From assembly GCA_018646195.1 (NCBI GenBank), contig JABGVH010000042.1, positions 1-49,018 on the forward strand: a stretch of 49,018 nt of DNA. The letters are read 5' to 3'. Positions 11,001 to 18,884 of this stretch are shown here, piece by piece (position 1 is the first letter of the stretch; every line of letters begins with the position of its first letter). The DNA is from Halobacteriovoraceae bacterium. Its GTDB lineage: Bacteria; Bdellovibrionota; Bacteriovoracia; Bacteriovoracales; Bacteriovoracaceae. The translations under genes were made by a program, and so were the position numbers. The notes below the pieces were generated by a model. That model was not told where the DNA came from and ran no database searches. It was given only the letters and a program-made list of their open reading frames with translations.

Positions 11001-11059
11001 TGTCGAAAATACTCGGACATTGAATATTTATTTAATTATTGTGCCGAAGCTGTCGAAAA
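11001..11059 (+). repeat. Direct repeat TGTCGAAAA, two copies 50 bases apart
   Basis: TGTCGAAAA occurs at 11001-11009 and 11051-11059, start to start exactly 50 bases (about five helical turns), upstream of the cytochrome operon. It could be an operator for that operon. With only two 9-base copies, chance is not excluded. Confidence 0.3.
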
Positions 11060-11095
11060 GACATAGGTAGTTTTTTAAGAATTAAGGAGTCGCCT

Positions 11096-12217
11096 ATCAA
11101 AGCGCTAATTTTAGTATTCAGTTTTGCCTTTGCACTTAACTGTATGGCAGGACCGCGAGAGCAAGCTTATCGATTGCATAATCGGATAGCGGGGGTCCCG
11201 CCTAGTAATGTCATCCTAGACCAAATGCAATTTCTTATTCAAAATAACGATGCCCAAGGGGCGGCACAAATAGCTATGAACAACCCCAACTTTTACTCGA
11301 TCGTGCTTAAGAATTGGGCCAAGACTATGACCAATGTGGATGCCAATTCTAGAGTAGAATTCAACGACTTTACTGCCACTGTGATTGGCATGATCCGCGA
11401 CAATAAGCCCTTTGATCAGGTCCTCTACGCTGATATTTTGTACACAGATAACGGCACATCTGGTGTCACACCTTATGCAAGAGATAGTAATGATCATTAT
11501 AAAGAGCTTGAAGATAATAAAGTTAACTTCATGACGACATTGCAAGAACGAGTTCAAAGCCAGCTCAACGGTATTCCTGACACTGCGGGAGTTTTTACAA
11601 CTCGCGCTGCAGCCGAGGCCTATTTTTCGGCCGGCACTAACCGTCGAGTCACACGCTTTGCATTCATGAACTTTCTCTGCAAAGACTATGAAGAGTTACA
11701 TGACATCACGATACCTGATATTCATGTCAGAAAAGATGTCGCAAGAAATCCAGGTGGAGATAGCCGGACCTATAAGAATAAATGTGTCGGCTGCCACGCG
11801 GGCCAAGATTCGATGAGTGGTGCTTGGGCCTATTTTGATTTTCAAAATGACCAATTAGAATACACCCTCAATGCCGTCGCTCCCAAGATCAATCTCATTT
11901 CTAATTACCCAGAGGCCGGCAATGTTACCAATGACTCCTTTAATAATATGTGGGTTACCGGCCAGAATGCATCTCTTGGTTGGAGAGGCGTTACTTCGGG
12001 CAATGGTGGCAAAGCGCTATTACAAATGCTCTCAAGAACCCGGGCATTTTCAGAATGCATGGCAGAGAGGGCCTATAAACTGACTTGCCTAAAGGATCCT
12101 AAGCAACAGGCCCATCTCGATGCCTTAGACCAATTCGCTACTCAATTTGAAACTACAGATAATTACAATTACAAAACTTTACTAGCAAAGACATCAGTTC
12201 TTTGTCTGGGAGAATAA
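11096..12217 (+). CDS. Exported c-type cytochrome-like protein (CVGCH), possible ATC start
   Basis: From an ATC at 11096 the product is 373 residues with a compact signal peptide (KALILVFSFAFALNCMA, then GPREQ). AAGGAG lies at 11084-11089, exactly 6 bases before this ATC. The only conventional in-frame start, TTG at 11039, has no ribosome site and gives a 19-residue extension. Residues about 185-245 read TNRRVTRFAFMNFLC, then IPDIHV, then a CVGCH haem site (Cys230, Cys233, His234) and MSGAWAYFDF. The order resembles DUF1588-type domains of planctomycete/myxobacterial cytochromes. Periplasmic or envelope location is expected. It is first in an operon with the genes at 12219, 12966, 14430 and 15727. 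Confidence 0.65.
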   Translation: MKALILVFSFAFALNCMAGPREQAYRLHNRIAGVPPSNVILDQMQFLIQNNDAQGAAQIAMNNPNFYSIVLKNWAKTMTNVDANSRVEFNDFTATVIGMIRDNKPFDQVLYADILYTDNGTSGVTPYARDSNDHYKELEDNKVNFMTTLQERVQSQLNGIPDTAGVFTTRAAAEAYFSAGTNRRVTRFAFMNFLCKDYEELHDITIPDIHVRKDVARNPGGDSRTYKNKCVGCHAGQDSMSGAWAYFDFQNDQLEYTLNAVAPKINLISNYPEAGNVTNDSFNNMWVTGQNASLGWRGVTSGNGGKALLQMLSRTRAFSECMAERAYKLTCLKDPKQQAHLDALDQFATQFETTDNYNYKTLLAKTSVLCLGE

Positions 12218-12218
12218 T

Positions 12219-12953
12219 ATGAGTCAGAATAACGACGAAACCAAAGAATTCAATTGGAGAATGGCCTCAAGTATTGGGACCGTGCTAATTCTCCTGCTCT
12301 CTTTCAATCACTGCGTGATTCAACCCTCAAAAACCAGCAAGAAAACCGCCGATGCGGTAGATAATGGAAGTAATAATAATACTAACAACAATAACAATAA
12401 CAATAACAATAACAATAACAACAATAACAATACCAATAATGTCGTCAACGAAGAAGTTGATGTCGGCATCAAAAACTTCGAACAAATAAATATGACCATG
12501 TCAGTTTTAACCGGAGTCTCTACCAGCGACAATGACATCGAGCGGACTTACGAAGAGCTGGAGCTGCAATTGCCGGAAAAAAATGACATCAAGACCTTTC
12601 TTTCGGCCAATCAAGTTGGTATTTCTAAACTAGCTGCGGAGTATTGCGACACCTTGGTTGACTCGAGTGCCCTGCGGACAGTTATCTGGCCAAATTTTAA
12701 TTTTGGTCAAAACCCTAACCAGGCACTAGTTGGGAATTCCACAAATCAGACCTATATTATAAATCAATCCCTCGATAAATTTTGGGGCAATAATATCAAT
12801 ATGAGTGAAAGAGCGAGTGCTCTTACCGAATTAACAACTTTATTAAATGACCTACTTCTAGGCGAAAACCTGGCCAGTTCTGCTACCACGCGGACGGTAG
12901 TCAAAGGCATCTGTATCGCCACTTTAAGTAGTGCGCAGGTAACATTACTTTAG
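12219..12953 (+). CDS. Lipoprotein with atypical lipobox and poly-asparagine linker
   Basis: The 244-residue product has a hydrophobic segment (about 17-29) ending LLLSFNHC, with Cys32 as the probable lipidated residue. His at -1 and Asn at -2 are unusual for a lipobox, which prefers Ala/Gly/Ser at -1. An Asn tract of 21 Asn and 2 Thr (residues 52-74) links it to a helical C-terminal domain (about 75-244) with LTGVSTSDNDIERTYEEL, AAEYCDTLVD and SERASALTELTTLLNDLLLG. That domain contains Cys residues but no CxxCH. The ATG follows GGGAG, two bases after the preceding stop. It probably tethers or spaces a partner of the neighbouring haem proteins, which is inference. Confidence 0.65.
   Translation: MSQNNDETKEFNWRMASSIGTVLILLLSFNHCVIQPSKTSKKTADAVDNGSNNNTNNNNNNNNNNNNNNNNTNNVVNEEVDVGIKNFEQINMTMSVLTGVSTSDNDIERTYEELELQLPEKNDIKTFLSANQVGISKLAAEYCDTLVDSSALRTVIWPNFNFGQNPNQALVGNSTNQTYIINQSLDKFWGNNINMSERASALTELTTLLNDLLLGENLASSATTRTVVKGICIATLSSAQVTLL
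12372..12440 (+). repeat. In-frame AAC/AAT microsatellite encoding poly-Asn
   Basis: Twenty-three codons, of which 21 are AAT or AAC and two are ACN. The core is an AACAAT hexanucleotide repeat. Slippage of multiples of three would change only linker length. The reverse strand gives a leucine-rich open frame that I regard as a shadow. Confidence 0.9.
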
Positions 12954-12965
12954 GGAGGAAGACCT

Positions 12966-14420
12966 GTGAAAAAGAAAAAAGAAGATAAGATAATTCCCAT
13001 AGAGGGGCACCGACTAAGTACCAGGAGAGACTTCCTTGGACAGGGTCTGGTGGCCGGTTTAGGTTATACTCTAGCACCGAGTGTCTTGGGCAGCCTCTAT
13101 TCAAATGCTGCCCAGGCAGTTGAATGTGGCTCAACTGCCCAATTCGCTCAAAAAACCCCCGTTATTATTCTAGACCTTGCAGGTGGCGCAAATTTCGCCG
13201 GCTCAAATGTCATGGTTGGAGGCGCTGGTGGTCAGTTAGATTTTATCGCCGACTATACTACCCTAGGACTACCGGCCAGTATGGGCCCCGCAATGACAGG
13301 TCAGCTCAATAATGAAATGGGTTTGATGTTTCACAATGACAGCGCAATTTTAAGAGGAATTCAAAATACTACTAGTATGGCAAATAGGTTGAAGTGTGAT
13401 GGAGGAATTTTCTGTACTTCATCCTCTGACGATACCAGCAATAATCCGCATAACCCCATGTACTGGCTGAATAAGGCCGGCGCAGAGGGAGAATTAACTC
13501 CGCTAGCGGGGACCCGAAACACGCCTTCAGGCGGGCGTTCGGTTATGCCACCCGAAAGTTTTAATCCGGCGCTACAACCAGTCACACTGACTCGTCCAAG
13601 CGATGCCCTTAGTCTGGTCAACGTTGGTAAGTTAGGAAGCCTCTTCGATCAGGCCAAGGCCGAAAAAATCCTTAAATCTATTGAAAATTTAAGTGAGTCT
13701 CGAATAGCTTCTTTTGCCCAGCAATCACTCCCCGACCAAGTCAAAGATTTAATTCGTTGTGGCTATGTAGGAACCAATGATCTGATTTCTAAATTTACCG
13801 CTCAGGCGATTGATCCCAGCCTCGATAATGCCGTACTTCAGGCCTTTGACAATCTCGGAGATGGTGACCAACGCAAGACTGCCACTATCGCGAAGATGGT
13901 GATTGATGGCTATATCGGTGCAGGAACGGTAGAGAAAGGTGGTTATGATTATCATAATGGAACCAGAGCAACCGGTGAGAATCGAGACTTTGATGCCGGT
14001 GAATTAATTGGGCGAATCATAAGTCTTGCCGCCCTCAAAGGCAAAGACGTTATGATCTATGTCATTTCGGATGGCGCAGTTTCAGCAAAAAATGAAGTCG
14101 ATAATTCTAATGATGGTCGTGGAAAATTTGTTTGGAGTGGCGATAGCGGTCAACGCTCATCCGCCTTCATGCTGCTCTATAGAAATGCAGGTCGCGCGAC
14201 CCTTCGAACTGGTCGTCGTCAAGTTGGACATTTTAAAGATAATGGAGCGGTAGAAAATAGCGCCACTCCTGCAAGTAATAGCGTCACAAACTTAGCAAAA
14301 CTAATCACTGCTAACTATCTTGCCCTCCATGGTGAAGAGGCGAAATTGGCAGAGGTAGTAGGTGATAACCCTTTTGGGGCCAGCCTCAATGATTATTTAT
14401 TATTTAATAAAATTAACTAA
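12966..14420 (+). CDS. Tat-exported DUF1501-like protein
   Basis: The 484-residue product starts at a GTG with AGGGAGG upstream. A twin-arginine signal is clear: STRRDFLGQG at 18-27, a hydrophobic stretch, and likely cleavage after AAQA (residue 51). The mature start VIILDLAGGANFAGSNVM, the DSAILRGIQN strand and a late GGYDYHNGTRATGE...GELIGRIISLAA...VMIYVISDGA section match the layout of DUF1501 proteins. These are Tat-exported partners of multi-domain cytochromes in planctomycetes and myxobacteria, and their fold is alkaline-phosphatase-like. Tat export implies folding, perhaps with a cofactor, before export. Catalytic residues are not obvious. It lies 12 bases after the Asn-repeat lipoprotein gene. 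Confidence 0.65.
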   Translation: MKKKKEDKIIPIEGHRLSTRRDFLGQGLVAGLGYTLAPSVLGSLYSNAAQAVECGSTAQFAQKTPVIILDLAGGANFAGSNVMVGGAGGQLDFIADYTTLGLPASMGPAMTGQLNNEMGLMFHNDSAILRGIQNTTSMANRLKCDGGIFCTSSSDDTSNNPHNPMYWLNKAGAEGELTPLAGTRNTPSGGRSVMPPESFNPALQPVTLTRPSDALSLVNVGKLGSLFDQAKAEKILKSIENLSESRIASFAQQSLPDQVKDLIRCGYVGTNDLISKFTAQAIDPSLDNAVLQAFDNLGDGDQRKTATIAKMVIDGYIGAGTVEKGGYDYHNGTRATGENRDFDAGELIGRIISLAALKGKDVMIYVISDGAVSAKNEVDNSNDGRGKFVWSGDSGQRSSAFMLLYRNAGRATLRTGRRQVGHFKDNGAVENSATPASNSVTNLAKLITANYLALHGEEAKLAEVVGDNPFGASLNDYLLFNKIN

Positions 14421-14429
14421 GGTGTTCCA

Positions 14430-15722
14430 TTGAAAATCTTTCAAAGTAGAAAGGTCTCAGTTTTTATTCTCTTATTCCTCCTTTTGGGGTCATACAACCA
14501 TTGTATGAGTCCAAAGAAAGGAAAATTAAAATTTAATTCTACAGAGGAATCTCCTCTAGGTAGTGGCAATAATACCTCTTCTGTTGCAGCATTTTCACAA
14601 ACCCTTCACCCTATTACCAAGGCCAACTGTACCATCTGCCACGGGGTCAATCAGGCACCTCTTCATGCGGTAGATGATGCACAACAGGCACACGATGCTG
14701 TTGTTAATGCCGGCAAGGTCAACATGTCCAACCCCGGCCAATCTCGAATGGTATTAAAATTGATAAACGAAAATCACAATTGCGGAACCAATTGTGCCAG
14801 CTGGGCCGCCCAAATGGAAACTGCCATCACCACTTGGAATAGTATGCTGGCCAACAATGGCAATAATAATGGGGATGATGAACCCAATAGAACCGCCGAT
14901 AGCCCGCCGCTAATCACAATTCTTGATCCCAATAATAATATGGATAATGGAACCTTAGTTCTCGATCCCGAATCTGGTTCGTTAGTAGCACCTATGGTTG
15001 CCGGAGTAGATGGTGAAATAGATTTCATCCACGTCCCTGACAATGGCGCAAATCTGGCCAATAACGACGCTACGGCGGGAATTGGCTACATTAATTTTAA
15101 TTCTACTATTTCTGACAATTATAAAGTTTATGGCTTTGTCGATGCTCCTGGCAATGGTGACAATTCCTTTCATATAAAAATCGATAATGGTGCTTATAAT
15201 GAATGGCATATCACAGAAACTGAAGGCTTTGAGTGGCGCGAGCTTACCAATACCGCTAATCAAAATCCGGTCAGTATTTTCCTACCGGCAGGGAATGGCC
15301 ATATCTTCGAAGTTCGCCAAAGAGAAGACGGGACAAAAATTAGCCAGGTAGTAGTTACCAATGATCCTAATGTCGATTTAAATGCCGTCTCGACGGCCGT
15401 GATTGGCACTCTCACCTACGACCTTTCTATGCACCTCAATCAGAATATCCAATTTCAAATTGACGTTCAGGAATTCGATGATTTTAGTTATAAATTCTCG
15501 AATCCTCGGATGCTAACCAATGGTGCCAATGTCTACGTCAAAGATATTAAAATCTACATCAATAGAAATTGGAATGCTCAGCATTCGACCTATACGGTGG
15601 TGGATAAAATCGTAACCCCCGCCGACTCTAGCCTTTCTCCTCATAGCATGATTGTTTTGAAAGACCTAGGCCCCCAATTTGATCTAGTCGGTTTTTCATT
15701 TGAAATCCTGACGGTGCAATAG
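14430..15722 (+). CDS. Haem c lipoprotein with atypical lipobox and C-terminal beta domain
   Basis: The 430-residue product starts at a TTG with AAGGTG before it. The signal segment VFILLFLLLGSYNHC gives Cys25 as the lipidation site, with the same Asn-His-Cys as the gene at 12219. A monohaem site, NCTICHGVN (Cys67, Cys70, His71), lies in a compact region of about 55-135. A Ser/Asn-rich linker follows. The C-terminal half (about 180-430) is beta-rich with YKVYGFVDAPGNGDNSFHIKIDN and EWRELTN, resembling lectin or carbohydrate-binding jelly-roll folds. Its stop lies 4 bases before the LspA-like gene. It is probably anchored in the outer membrane or the periplasmic face of the inner membrane. Confidence 0.65.
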   Translation: MKIFQSRKVSVFILLFLLLGSYNHCMSPKKGKLKFNSTEESPLGSGNNTSSVAAFSQTLHPITKANCTICHGVNQAPLHAVDDAQQAHDAVVNAGKVNMSNPGQSRMVLKLINENHNCGTNCASWAAQMETAITTWNSMLANNGNNNGDDEPNRTADSPPLITILDPNNNMDNGTLVLDPESGSLVAPMVAGVDGEIDFIHVPDNGANLANNDATAGIGYINFNSTISDNYKVYGFVDAPGNGDNSFHIKIDNGAYNEWHITETEGFEWRELTNTANQNPVSIFLPAGNGHIFEVRQREDGTKISQVVVTNDPNVDLNAVSTAVIGTLTYDLSMHLNQNIQFQIDVQEFDDFSYKFSNPRMLTNGANVYVKDIKIYINRNWNAQHSTYTVVDKIVTPADSSLSPHSMIVLKDLGPQFDLVGFSFEILTVQ

Positions 15723-15726
15723 ACCC

Positions 15727-16578
15727 ATGAAAAAAGAGATCGCAATTTCTCTTGGCCTTTTCACAATGGCCATATTGGTCGATCAGTTGTCCAAGAGTTG
15801 GGCCCTCTCCAATCTAAGTGTTCACTTTAATAAAGGAATCATATTCGGGTTTTATTCCGAGCTACCTAGCTCACTAAGAGTCATTAGCCTCTGTAGTTTT
15901 TTTGGTTTTATTTTCTTTGTTTATTTGATTTTAATTTACCTATTACCATCTCAGCTATCTAGGCTAAAATATGGCATTTCACTTTTTACGGGTGGGATAT
16001 TTGGCAACGTGCTGGATAAGACCTTTCGAGGTAAGGCGATTGATTTTATTCCATTTACTCAGTTTGGTCTCAATATACAATTCAATCTAGCGGACGTCAT
16101 ACAATGGATAGGGGCTGCGATAATTGTCTATAAAGTCGTCGTGGCAGAAAAAATAATTTGGTATCCAGAGAATCAAAGGGGAAAGTTTTTAGTTAATCCC
16201 GCAGAGCAAATTCGCTTTGGTCTTAAATTTGCGGCGATTTCCATTTGCTCTTTCTTTTTGATCGGCCTTTTTTCTTTTACCTTTTTTCGCACCAGCATTT
16301 TAGAAAATAATCTGAATAATGCCGACGCCCTACTCTCGGGCTTTCTTCTGGCCTATATTTCGCTCTCTCTTATTTTCACCCTATTGGTCTTTTTTGCAGG
16401 ACTAATTATTTCACATAAAACCGCAGGCCCTCTATATGCCTTTGAGCTTTATGTAGAAGACCTTCTAAAGGGGGATCGGCGAGATTTAGTGCTTCGCGAC
16501 GGAGACAATTACCGCCACCTCGAAAGCATTGCCCAGAACCTTAATCAGCACTTCAAAAAGAACGACCAGGCGCGCTAA
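15727..16578 (+). CDS. Signal peptidase II (LspA)-like protein fused to a TM-HAMP-like module
   Basis: The 283-residue product is far longer than ordinary LspA (about 160-170). Residues 1-140 carry the LspA motifs: VDQLSK (Asp19), FNKGIIFGF (Asn35), TGGIFGNVLDK (Asn94), then AIDFI with catalytic-type Asp106 and FNLAD with Asp123. The usual Arg after the GN-x-x-D motif is Lys98, and the periplasmic loop before FNKG is short. Residues about 165-188 and 205-228 are two more membrane helices. Residues 229-277 (TAGPLYAFELYVEDLLKGD...LRDGDNYRHLESIAQNLN) are HAMP-like. The ATG lies 4 bases after the preceding gene. LspA cleaves prolipoproteins at the lipidated Cys. I infer a specialised paralogue for the adjacent lipoproteins. 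Confidence 0.75.
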   Translation: MKKEIAISLGLFTMAILVDQLSKSWALSNLSVHFNKGIIFGFYSELPSSLRVISLCSFFGFIFFVYLILIYLLPSQLSRLKYGISLFTGGIFGNVLDKTFRGKAIDFIPFTQFGLNIQFNLADVIQWIGAAIIVYKVVVAEKIIWYPENQRGKFLVNPAEQIRFGLKFAAISICSFFLIGLFSFTFFRTSILENNLNNADALLSGFLLAYISLSLIFTLLVFFAGLIISHKTAGPLYAFELYVEDLLKGDRRDLVLRDGDNYRHLESIAQNLNQHFKKNDQAR

Positions 16579-16596
16579 AATCACCTAAAATTGGCG

Positions 16597-16625
16597 TTTC
16601 ATTTCAGCTGACTATCCTCTATAAT
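16597..16625 (+). promoter_or_regulatory. Predicted promoter of the haem-barrel gene
   Basis: A perfect TATAAT lies at 16620-16625, with TTTCAT 17 bases upstream at 16597-16602. The expected start of transcription is near 16632, giving a leader of about 20 bases before the ATG at 16651. The -35 match is weak. Confidence 0.4.
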
Positions 16626-16650
16626 CGACCATCAAACTCGGTTATGGAAA

Positions 16651-17811
16651 ATGATTAAAAAGCTTCTGTTTATAGGCCTTACCCTCTTCAGCTCTCACGC
16701 TTGGAGCTATCCAAATTTTATTGGGTTTGGTTATAACGCCTGCCTTACTTGTCATTATAATCCCTACGGCAATGGGCCACTGACTGATTACGGCCGCGCA
16801 CTTTCCGCCAACGCCATTTCTGACCGCTTGATTCATTCCGATTCTAAAAGTGAAGAAGAAATCGCAACTAATTCAGGCTTTCTCTATTCAAAACCAAAAA
16901 ATCAATGGCTTCGCCCCTCAATAGATTACCGCGGGCTCTATTTAAAATCGAACTATCAAACCGACACAGAAGATAGCAAAATCATTCATATGGATGCCAA
17001 TCTCAATCTCGTTTTTAGATTAGGCCCGAAAGAAAATAAGGACAAATTCATAGCGGTAGGAACGGTTGGCTACGCCCCTGCCCCTCTCTCTAATCAAGAC
17101 AGTACCGAACCTAAGTACCGCTCACGTGAACATTACTTAGGGTATCGTATGAATGATAAGTGGGGTGTTTACGGTGGTCTGATGGACAAAATTTTTGGTC
17201 TTCGAATTCCAGATCATATAACTTATTCAAGAATTGCCCCGGCAGTTAGTCAAAATGATCAAACCCATGGCGTACTTCTTCATTATACAAAACCAGTTCT
17301 CGACTTTGGTGTCCAAGCTTATGTCGGCAATATGGCACAAGATGCTAACCTTCGACAAAAGGGTATAGCGACACAAGCCGAGTACTCAGTGACCGACAAT
17401 ACTCGAATTGGTGGATCTCTTTTTAATTCAAAATCAATCTTTTTAAAAACGTATGGCATGGCCTTTCATTCCCGTTCCCGCTTTGGAAAAGGCTCCAGCA
17501 TTATGGCCGAAGTTGGACAAGTTAATAAGAGCGCTGTCTCTGGCTCCAGTGATATCGATAGCCGTTATTGGTTAATTCAAAATCATATAAAGGCCAGCAG
17601 AGGACTTTATATCATTAATACCATTGAATATTTCAAGGCCAATATTAAGAAAAAAGAGGATAAGAGCATACGCTTTGGCCCGGGCCTTCAATACTTTCCA
17701 GGGCAAGGTTTAGAACTTCGTACCGATTTATACAACACCCGAGTCTTCAGTGAAGAGTCAGTATCTGACGATACTTGGGATATCACAGGGCAGTTACACT
17801 TATGGTTTTAA
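16651..17811 (+). CDS. Monohaem cytochrome c fused to an outer-membrane beta-barrel (Cyc2-like architecture)
   Basis: The 386-residue product has a signal peptide (residues 1-19). Within 12 residues of the predicted cleavage there is one haem motif, YNACLTCHYNPYGNG (Cys31, Cys34, His35), followed by GPLTDYGRAL. From about residue 75 to the end it alternates amphipathic strands and turns, and it finishes in LHLWF, the aromatic C-terminal signature of BAM-inserted barrels. N-terminal haem plus C-terminal porin in about 400 residues is the architecture of Cyc2 iron oxidases. Direct homology to Cyc2 is not shown, and the CLTCH...YGRAL segment may define another family. It overlaps the next gene by 10 bases. 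Confidence 0.65.
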   Translation: MIKKLLFIGLTLFSSHAWSYPNFIGFGYNACLTCHYNPYGNGPLTDYGRALSANAISDRLIHSDSKSEEEIATNSGFLYSKPKNQWLRPSIDYRGLYLKSNYQTDTEDSKIIHMDANLNLVFRLGPKENKDKFIAVGTVGYAPAPLSNQDSTEPKYRSREHYLGYRMNDKWGVYGGLMDKIFGLRIPDHITYSRIAPAVSQNDQTHGVLLHYTKPVLDFGVQAYVGNMAQDANLRQKGIATQAEYSVTDNTRIGGSLFNSKSIFLKTYGMAFHSRSRFGKGSSIMAEVGQVNKSAVSGSSDIDSRYWLIQNHIKASRGLYIINTIEYFKANIKKKEDKSIRFGPGLQYFPGQGLELRTDLYNTRVFSEESVSDDTWDITGQLHLWF

Positions 17812-18884
17812 GGTTCTTGAAATACCTATTTTTAAGTATCCTTATTTTAGGTAGTGCCCCACTATGGTCACAGAGTAAGTCGCAAAACTCTGCCTTTAGC
17901 CGGGCAAAGGCACAATTCAAACGCCAGGAATATGCTAAAAGTATACGCACTCTTCGAAATCAATTTAATTTTAAAAATAAGAGCACGCCCTACGGCGCTA
18001 TTCAGCTAGCAGCTTATGCTTATGAAAAATTAGAAAACTACTCTATGTCCCAATACCTCTATGGCTTTTTGATAAAAAGAAAATACCAGGCAAAAAATCG
18101 TTTGGTCATGCAACATTTTCGAAAGAATGGAGTTGAGGACCTACCAGAAGTCCCCGAAAAGCTGGCCTTCTATTACCATCACCGAGCAATGGCACTCAAA
18201 GAGCTTTACACAAAGAAACATGATGACTTAACTGCCCGCCGCCGCCTTCTTTTTTATAATACCGCTAAAATGTATGCTGAAATAGTTATGGAAAATGATG
18301 ACTACGATGACGATAGCGTTGAGGATATCCTGACCGACCTCAAGAAGTTTGCAGAAGCAAAAGAGCTTTCAATCTATAAAGGCAGCTGGTTTGCCAGCGC
18401 TTCTTATATTACTTGGAGAGATAAATTAACACTGGTTCTTCAAAGTGGGGCCAAGGCAGAAATTAACTCTACAAGTGAGGGCTGGTGTTTTGGAGGTGGT
18501 TACCAATATCAAAACGCAACATGGAATTTCAATGCCAATGCCTGCTATTCCTTTGCCAACGCTACCGTTGGAAATGATGCTTCTGCATTTAATTATTTTC
18601 AGAAAAATGTAGGTGTTAATGCTCTCTTCTTAGGCCCCGAAATACTGTATAGGCCAACTTCTGGAGAGGTGGCAATTGGTATTGCCACACCAATAGTCGT
18701 TCGCTCTGGAGATTATACTGACCCACCAAGCGGCTTTTCTCTCGAAGATACTAGTATATTTACTTTCGGTTATTTCCTGGTTGCAAGATACCATTGGAAC
18801 CAATTTGGGATGGCCAGTAAGTTAGGAAAGGTTGCAAAATTTTCCTCAAGTATGTGGCAACTTGAGCTACGTTACGATTTCTAA
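17802..18884 (+). CDS. TPR-like domain plus outer-membrane beta-barrel protein
   Basis: From the ATG at 17802 the product is 360 residues with a standard signal peptide (cleavage near APLWSQ). An upstream in-frame TTG at 17775 would only lengthen the n-region. Residues about 28-195 are helical and repeat-like (AKAQFKRQEYAKSIRTLRNQF, AIQLAAYAYEKLENYSMSQY), as in TPR proteins. From about 200 the sequence turns to amphipathic strands (GSWFASASYITW, GWCFGGGYQYQNATWNFNANACYSF) and ends in LELRYDF, a barrel-type C-terminus. The gene starts inside the haem-barrel gene, so the two are translationally coupled and probably work together at the outer membrane. Partner or scaffold role is inference. Confidence 0.65.
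   Translation: MVLRFLKYLFLSILILGSAPLWSQSKSQNSAFSRAKAQFKRQEYAKSIRTLRNQFNFKNKSTPYGAIQLAAYAYEKLENYSMSQYLYGFLIKRKYQAKNRLVMQHFRKNGVEDLPEVPEKLAFYYHHRAMALKELYTKKHDDLTARRRLLFYNTAKMYAEIVMENDDYDDDSVEDILTDLKKFAEAKELSIYKGSWFASASYITWRDKLTLVLQSGAKAEINSTSEGWCFGGGYQYQNATWNFNANACYSFANATVGNDASAFNYFQKNVGVNALFLGPEILYRPTSGEVAIGIATPIVVRSGDYTDPPSGFSLEDTSIFTFGYFLVARYHWNQFGMASKLGKVAKFSSSMWQLELRYDF

Follow-up and report, generated by a model that had tools for sequence, protein, structure and literature searches.

The window, by which we mean the whole stretch of 49,018 nucleotides that was analysed, carries seven same-strand genes at positions 11039-18884, encoding a haem-motif protein, a lipoprotein (lp1), a twin-arginine (Tat)-type protein, a second lipoprotein (lp2), a signal peptidase II (SPase II)-like protein that we call LspN, and two further secreted proteins:

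11039-12217, + strand: secreted single-haem (CVGCH) protein, the first gene of the cluster; orthologues adjoin lp1 in nearly all clusters
12219-12953, + strand: lp1, a lipoprotein of 244 a.a. with the signal end LILLLSFNH-C, from reading of the open reading frame
12303-12314, + strand: FNHC lipobox of lp1, a match to the [FY]NHC pattern at the signal-peptide end
12966-14420, + strand: twin-arginine-type secreted protein, from the signal motif TRRDFL
14430-15722, + strand: lp2, a lipoprotein of 430 a.a. with a TTG start and the signal end LLLGSYNH-C, from reading of the open reading frame
14493-14504, + strand: YNHC lipobox of lp2, a match to the [FY]NHC pattern at the signal-peptide end
15727-16578, + strand: LspN, an SPase II (Peptidase_A8) paralogue of 283 a.a., 4 bases after lp2, from its PF01252 match
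16651-17811, + strand: conserved secreted protein with a CLTCH haem motif, downstream of LspN, recurring in the clusters of relatives
17775-18884, + strand: conserved TPR-like secreted protein, downstream, recurring in the clusters of relatives

The original prediction had singled out lp1 and lp2 for signals ending in FNHC and YNHC and had placed an SPase II-like gene 4 bases past lp2. Reading of the frames bore out the signals, and the match to Pfam PF01252 (55.9 bits, 7e-15; gathering cut-off 25) bore out the gene. The CVGCH protein has an ordinary, non-lipoprotein signal in most relatives, and its relatives gave weak Pfam matches to PSD2/PSCyt3; Pfam searches returned no match for the Tat-type protein and nothing for the downstream haem-motif protein. 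A haem motif, CTICH, lies close to the N-terminus of lp2. In lp1, a run of Asn codons follows shortly after the lipobox (window positions 12372-12450), and its length differs among relatives. The LspN frame is open into the downstream haem-motif protein in three genomes (L089:303-2234, L090:8040-9953 and L092:4855-6816), and an internal signal-like segment lies where the two coding parts meet, so that they are either fused or coupled by overlap.

The standard lipobox is [LV][ASTVI][GAS]C (PMC8048626). The remaining three lipoproteins in the window have the boxes WSC, ISC and SSC, with Ser at -1 as had been claimed, and among about 15 credible lipoproteins found by sampling 10% of the genome the residue at this position is always Ser, Gly or Ala. 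DNA sites coding for [FY]NHC number 25 in 3.8 Mb; apart from the pair in the window, none lies at the end of a signal peptide. The polar box is thus limited to this operon in the source genome.

LspN homologues were searched for in 143 genomes of the phylum, which yielded more than 50 full-length sequences. Their carriers are predatory relatives of Halobacteriovorax and Bdellovibrio, which have LspN beside the normal enzyme; Halobacteriovorax MAGs are the closest relatives with a name. In the family to which the window belongs, the whole cluster, from the haem protein through the two downstream secreted proteins, is found in over 20 genomes, which belong to many genera; some of these have one half of it inverted. 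From 23 clusters we compiled 46 lp1/lp2 signals, whose N-termini were copied by hand. Position -3 is Phe or Tyr and position -2 is Asn or Thr in all 46; position -1 is His or Gln in 45 and Asn in one (YNNC), so that the small residue at -1 of an ordinary lipobox occurs in none. The polar box [FY][NT][HQ]C is constant across more than 20 genera, while most other signal-peptide positions are variable, and Pro is frequent at +4 after the Cys in lp2. The expectation that C-terminally extended LspA paralogues in related genomes would have neighbouring lipoproteins with such a box therefore held, with a broader consensus: the predicted [FY]NHC is seen, but within [FY][NT][HQ]C, along with YNNC and, in a second LspN subgroup, [FY]QNC. 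The predicted substrate set has two members here, lp1 and lp2, but is larger in some genomes. Downstream of the cluster, a third lipoprotein of about 365 a.a., lp3, was noted at L065:12096 and L367:10939, with the boxes TYTHC and LFTHC, respectively; it is related to a lipoprotein at L340, and only one domain is common to lp3 and lp2. L367 is from Bacteriovorax sp. DB6_IX, a cultured relative in which the cluster has FTHC, YTHC and FTHC as its boxes.

We compared these clusters with their homologues in genomes lacking LspN, which have ordinary boxes, such as FISC, LTSC, VSSC, LTGC and LASC. Among 52 clusters, the polar box occurs in 29 with LspN in the genome and in none without it, as against 5 and 18, respectively, for the ordinary box (Fisher 8e-10, with relatedness ignored). 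The five ordinary-box clusters indicate that the presence of LspN alone does not force a polar box. The converse rule, that a polar box implies LspN, is true wherever testable; one draft genome, L194, ends within lp2. On a tree of the Tat-type protein, lipobox type changes only three times, which leaves too few independent contrasts to reach significance; sister pairs are likewise too few, and none runs in the opposite direction.

A genome-wide pattern in which [FY][NT][HQ]C is preceded by three hydrophobic codons and then two free ones was applied to 22 genomes with LspN and 30 without, leaving 44 and 28 sites after translation, respectively. Read in context, 28 of the 44 sites are polar lipoproteins (27 at the cluster and one, at L340, elsewhere), whereas none of the 28 sites in the LspN-less genomes is a lipoprotein signal. 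The genome-wide comparison of lipoboxes called for by the original prediction thus found no lipoprotein with this polar box outside LspN-bearing genomes. Signal and enzyme are present or absent together, as expected of a dedicated pair (28 in 22 genomes versus 0 in 30), and homologous cargo bears another signal where LspN is missing, in a small number of independent events. The ordinary LspA is kept in all nine LspN-bearing genomes checked, and likewise in those without LspN.

The second LspN subgroup consists of two families (f6 and f11) from Bdellovibrionales-like genomes, in which LspN lies apart from the cluster. In these genomes, the matching clusters and further lipoproteins bear [FY]QNC. 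Sites with [FY]QNC following four non-polar residues numbered 39 in eight genomes of this type versus 3 in ten others, the latter from two LspN-less genomes and counted by pattern alone; of the 39 pattern sites, part were read in context. Several proved to be the heads of lipoproteins dissimilar to lp1 and lp2, and in three other genomes (L075, L097 and L104) QNC lipoproteins with unrelated cargo directly adjoin LspN. Since these lipoproteins show no similarity to lp1 or lp2 in their mature portions, the shared box is not explained by common cargo ancestry.

These distributions bear on whether the pairing is functional at all. Two old operon lipoproteins might simply have inherited the box and be cut by the ordinary LspA, with LspN hitch-hiking beside them, as the small number of independent changes on the tree (three) would allow; much of the correlation is also expected from tight gene linkage alone. 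However, the box is retained although the signal peptide has largely diverged, it recurs on unrelated lipoproteins and on QNC-subgroup lipoproteins unlinked from lspN, and ordinary boxes appear on homologues without LspN, which makes such passive inheritance unlikely.

LspN has the features of an SPase II. All 38 aligned LspN sequences match PF01252, and N35, G37, N94, D97, D106, N120, D123, R151 and Q161 are invariant among them, down to 29% identity; the putative catalytic pair, assigned by motif, is Asp106/Asp123. An AF2 model (pLDDT 89) has the four-helix LspA fold, with 5DIR, 6RYP and 6RYO as the top Foldseek matches (probability 1.00), and it aligns with the LspA structures 5DIR and 6RYO across the first ~140 residues. 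The score against the LspA equivalog TIGR00077 is 43.1 bits, under the cut-off of 73.95, and LspN activity is therefore not guaranteed. Beyond the fold, the C-terminal tail comprises a pair of membrane helices together with a HAMP-like segment that weakly matches WalK. A stand-alone TM-HAMP protein of 192 a.a. in the same genome (L118:5102-5680, G000 contig C82) resembles this tail, and short proteins similar to it are found across the phylum. The two further LspAs in the source genome are shorter and more ordinary than LspN. Another LspA paralogue, in which NTGAWG/NRGAWG replaces NPGAAFG, was observed at L002 (G000:C116:17430-17852) and L408.

In phylogenetic analysis, LspN formed a single clade separate from seven ordinary LspAs (SH-aLRT 99), with an outgroup that is thin because 7 of the 16 ordinary LspAs, those passing the motif filter, were recovered. 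The subgroups differ in the K23-N35 loop, part of the beta-cradle, which in LspA is a clamp on the scissile bond (PMC8048626). The loop is 11 a.a. in the LspN of the window versus 26 in both ordinary LspAs of the genome, which leaves LspN short of a full beta-cradle from TM1 to the NxG motif. Its length correlates with box type by subgroup, being 10-12 a.a. in LspN with [NT][HQN]C clusters and 19-24 in QNC-linked LspN; about 15 beta-cradle residues are lost in the NHC/TQC subgroup. The Lys in GNVLDK, to which the original prediction had drawn attention, is present here, but it is no signature since Arg is found in 45 of the 57 aligned LspA/LspN sequences, most LspN included; for lack of conservation, it was ruled out as the cause of specificity.

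The tail with its TM-HAMP-like extension, unusual in a peptidase, and the score under the equivalog cut-off would also suit a partner that does no processing. Acting as a chaperone, a sensor or a decoy, it might bind the prolipoproteins or keep them anchored by their signals, and the polar box would then be cut slowly or not at all. The invariance of the catalytic Asp residues and of the surrounding N, G and D residues in 38 sequences so divergent argues against this, and we consider such a role quite improbable. Finally, Leu at -6 (39 of the 46 lp1/lp2 signals) and Ser, Thr, Gly or Ala at -4 (37 of 46) are reminiscent of an ordinary L-x-[small] site set three residues ahead of the Cys, but an upstream cut there by SPase I or LspN, leaving [FY][NT][HQ]C on the mature protein, is hardly credible given that the Cys is invariant and corresponds to the ordinary lipobox Cys in LspN-less homologues, and that much of the QNC subgroup lacks a small residue at -4.

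Taken together, LspN is most probably a paralogous SPase II specialised for, and co-inherited with, polar-lipobox lipoproteins, while the ordinary LspA takes the rest. The dedicated peptidase with altered lipobox preference that was originally proposed is thus supported by co-occurrence, conservation and linkage, by the intact catalytic motifs and by the correlation of loop length with box type, and we infer that LspN is the cutting enzyme and that the ordinary LspA does not cut polar boxes. Lgt, probably shared, would first put the diacylglyceryl group on the lipobox Cys, and LspN would then cut ahead of the lipidated Cys through Asp106 and Asp123. The changed LspN pocket, chiefly the shortened beta-cradle of the NHC/TQC subgroup, would admit a polar box that is poorly accepted by the ordinary LspA, which would handle [AST][GAS]C boxes in the same cell. 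Lipidation is assigned to a shared Lgt because Lgt copy number is out of step with LspN: it is 2 in LspN-bearing genomes and 2 (once 1) in those without, which rules out a dedicated Lgt. An ordinary lspA adjoins a second, divergent lgt at G000:C203:3148-4345, and two lgt genes were present in all checked genomes but one. The HAMP-like tail may couple LspN to the state of the membrane or of a partner; we are less confident of any role in regulation or in routing than of the pairing of LspN and box.

To our knowledge, SPase II is regarded as a single generic enzyme per cell with a single loose lipobox. With LspA (PF01252, MEROPS A8; 5DIR, 6RYO), LspN has in common the fold, the Asp dyad and the NxG, GNxxD and N-x-[AS]-D motifs; it differs in scoring under the TIGR00077 cut-off, in its separate clade and in its TM-TM-HAMP-like tail, the beta-cradle loop is shorter in one of its subgroups, and the lipoproteins linked to it have polar boxes. 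Myxococcus xanthus has the extra enzymes LspA3 and LspA4, which belong to the myxovirescin cluster and are tied to an LspA-targeting antibiotic of the same cell (PMC8689077). These resemble LspN as extra copies beside housekeeping LspAs, but an altered lipobox set is absent from the description in that review. In Leptospira, the lipobox is flexible, with Asn, Gln and other bulky residues at -1, and unusual sequence features of Lgt and Lsp have been proposed as the explanation (PMC4758666). Since bulky or polar residues are accommodated at -1 there with no second Lsp invoked, such boxes do not strictly demand an additional enzyme. The change proposed in Leptospira concerns its Lgt and Lsp generally, whereas in the LspN-bearing bacteria a second enzyme accompanies a separate box class and ordinary boxes are retained. 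There is a parallel in logic with rhombosortase/GlyGly-CTERM (PMC3237569) and the sortases, in which sorting signal and enzyme also co-occur, lie adjacent if dedicated and dispersed if many-to-one, and homologous cargo swaps signals; those systems use C-terminal signals and unrelated proteases, unlike the N-terminal lipobox and SPase II paralogue described here.

In the open-licence PMC literature that we searched, no LspA paralogue dedicated to an altered lipobox was found, in agreement with the original view that such an enzyme-substrate set was undescribed; within that literature, LspN, if the pairing is correct, would be the first case of a lipoprotein peptidase split by specificity. It would also provide a natural enzyme pair for studying lipobox recognition by LspA, a point that PMC8048626 leaves open, and the polar box with LspN could be usable as an orthogonal lipidation tag. 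More speculatively, and with considerable doubt on our part, Bdellovibrionota might possess an orthogonal second maturation channel, in which LspN beta-cradles read different polar boxes, the HAMP-like tail conditions cutting, and the timing or routing of the products, which in the window are c-type-haem lipoproteins, is thereby separated from that of ordinary lipoproteins. If LspN does process the polar boxes, one lipoprotein class of predatory bacteria would escape predictors that demand a small residue at -1.
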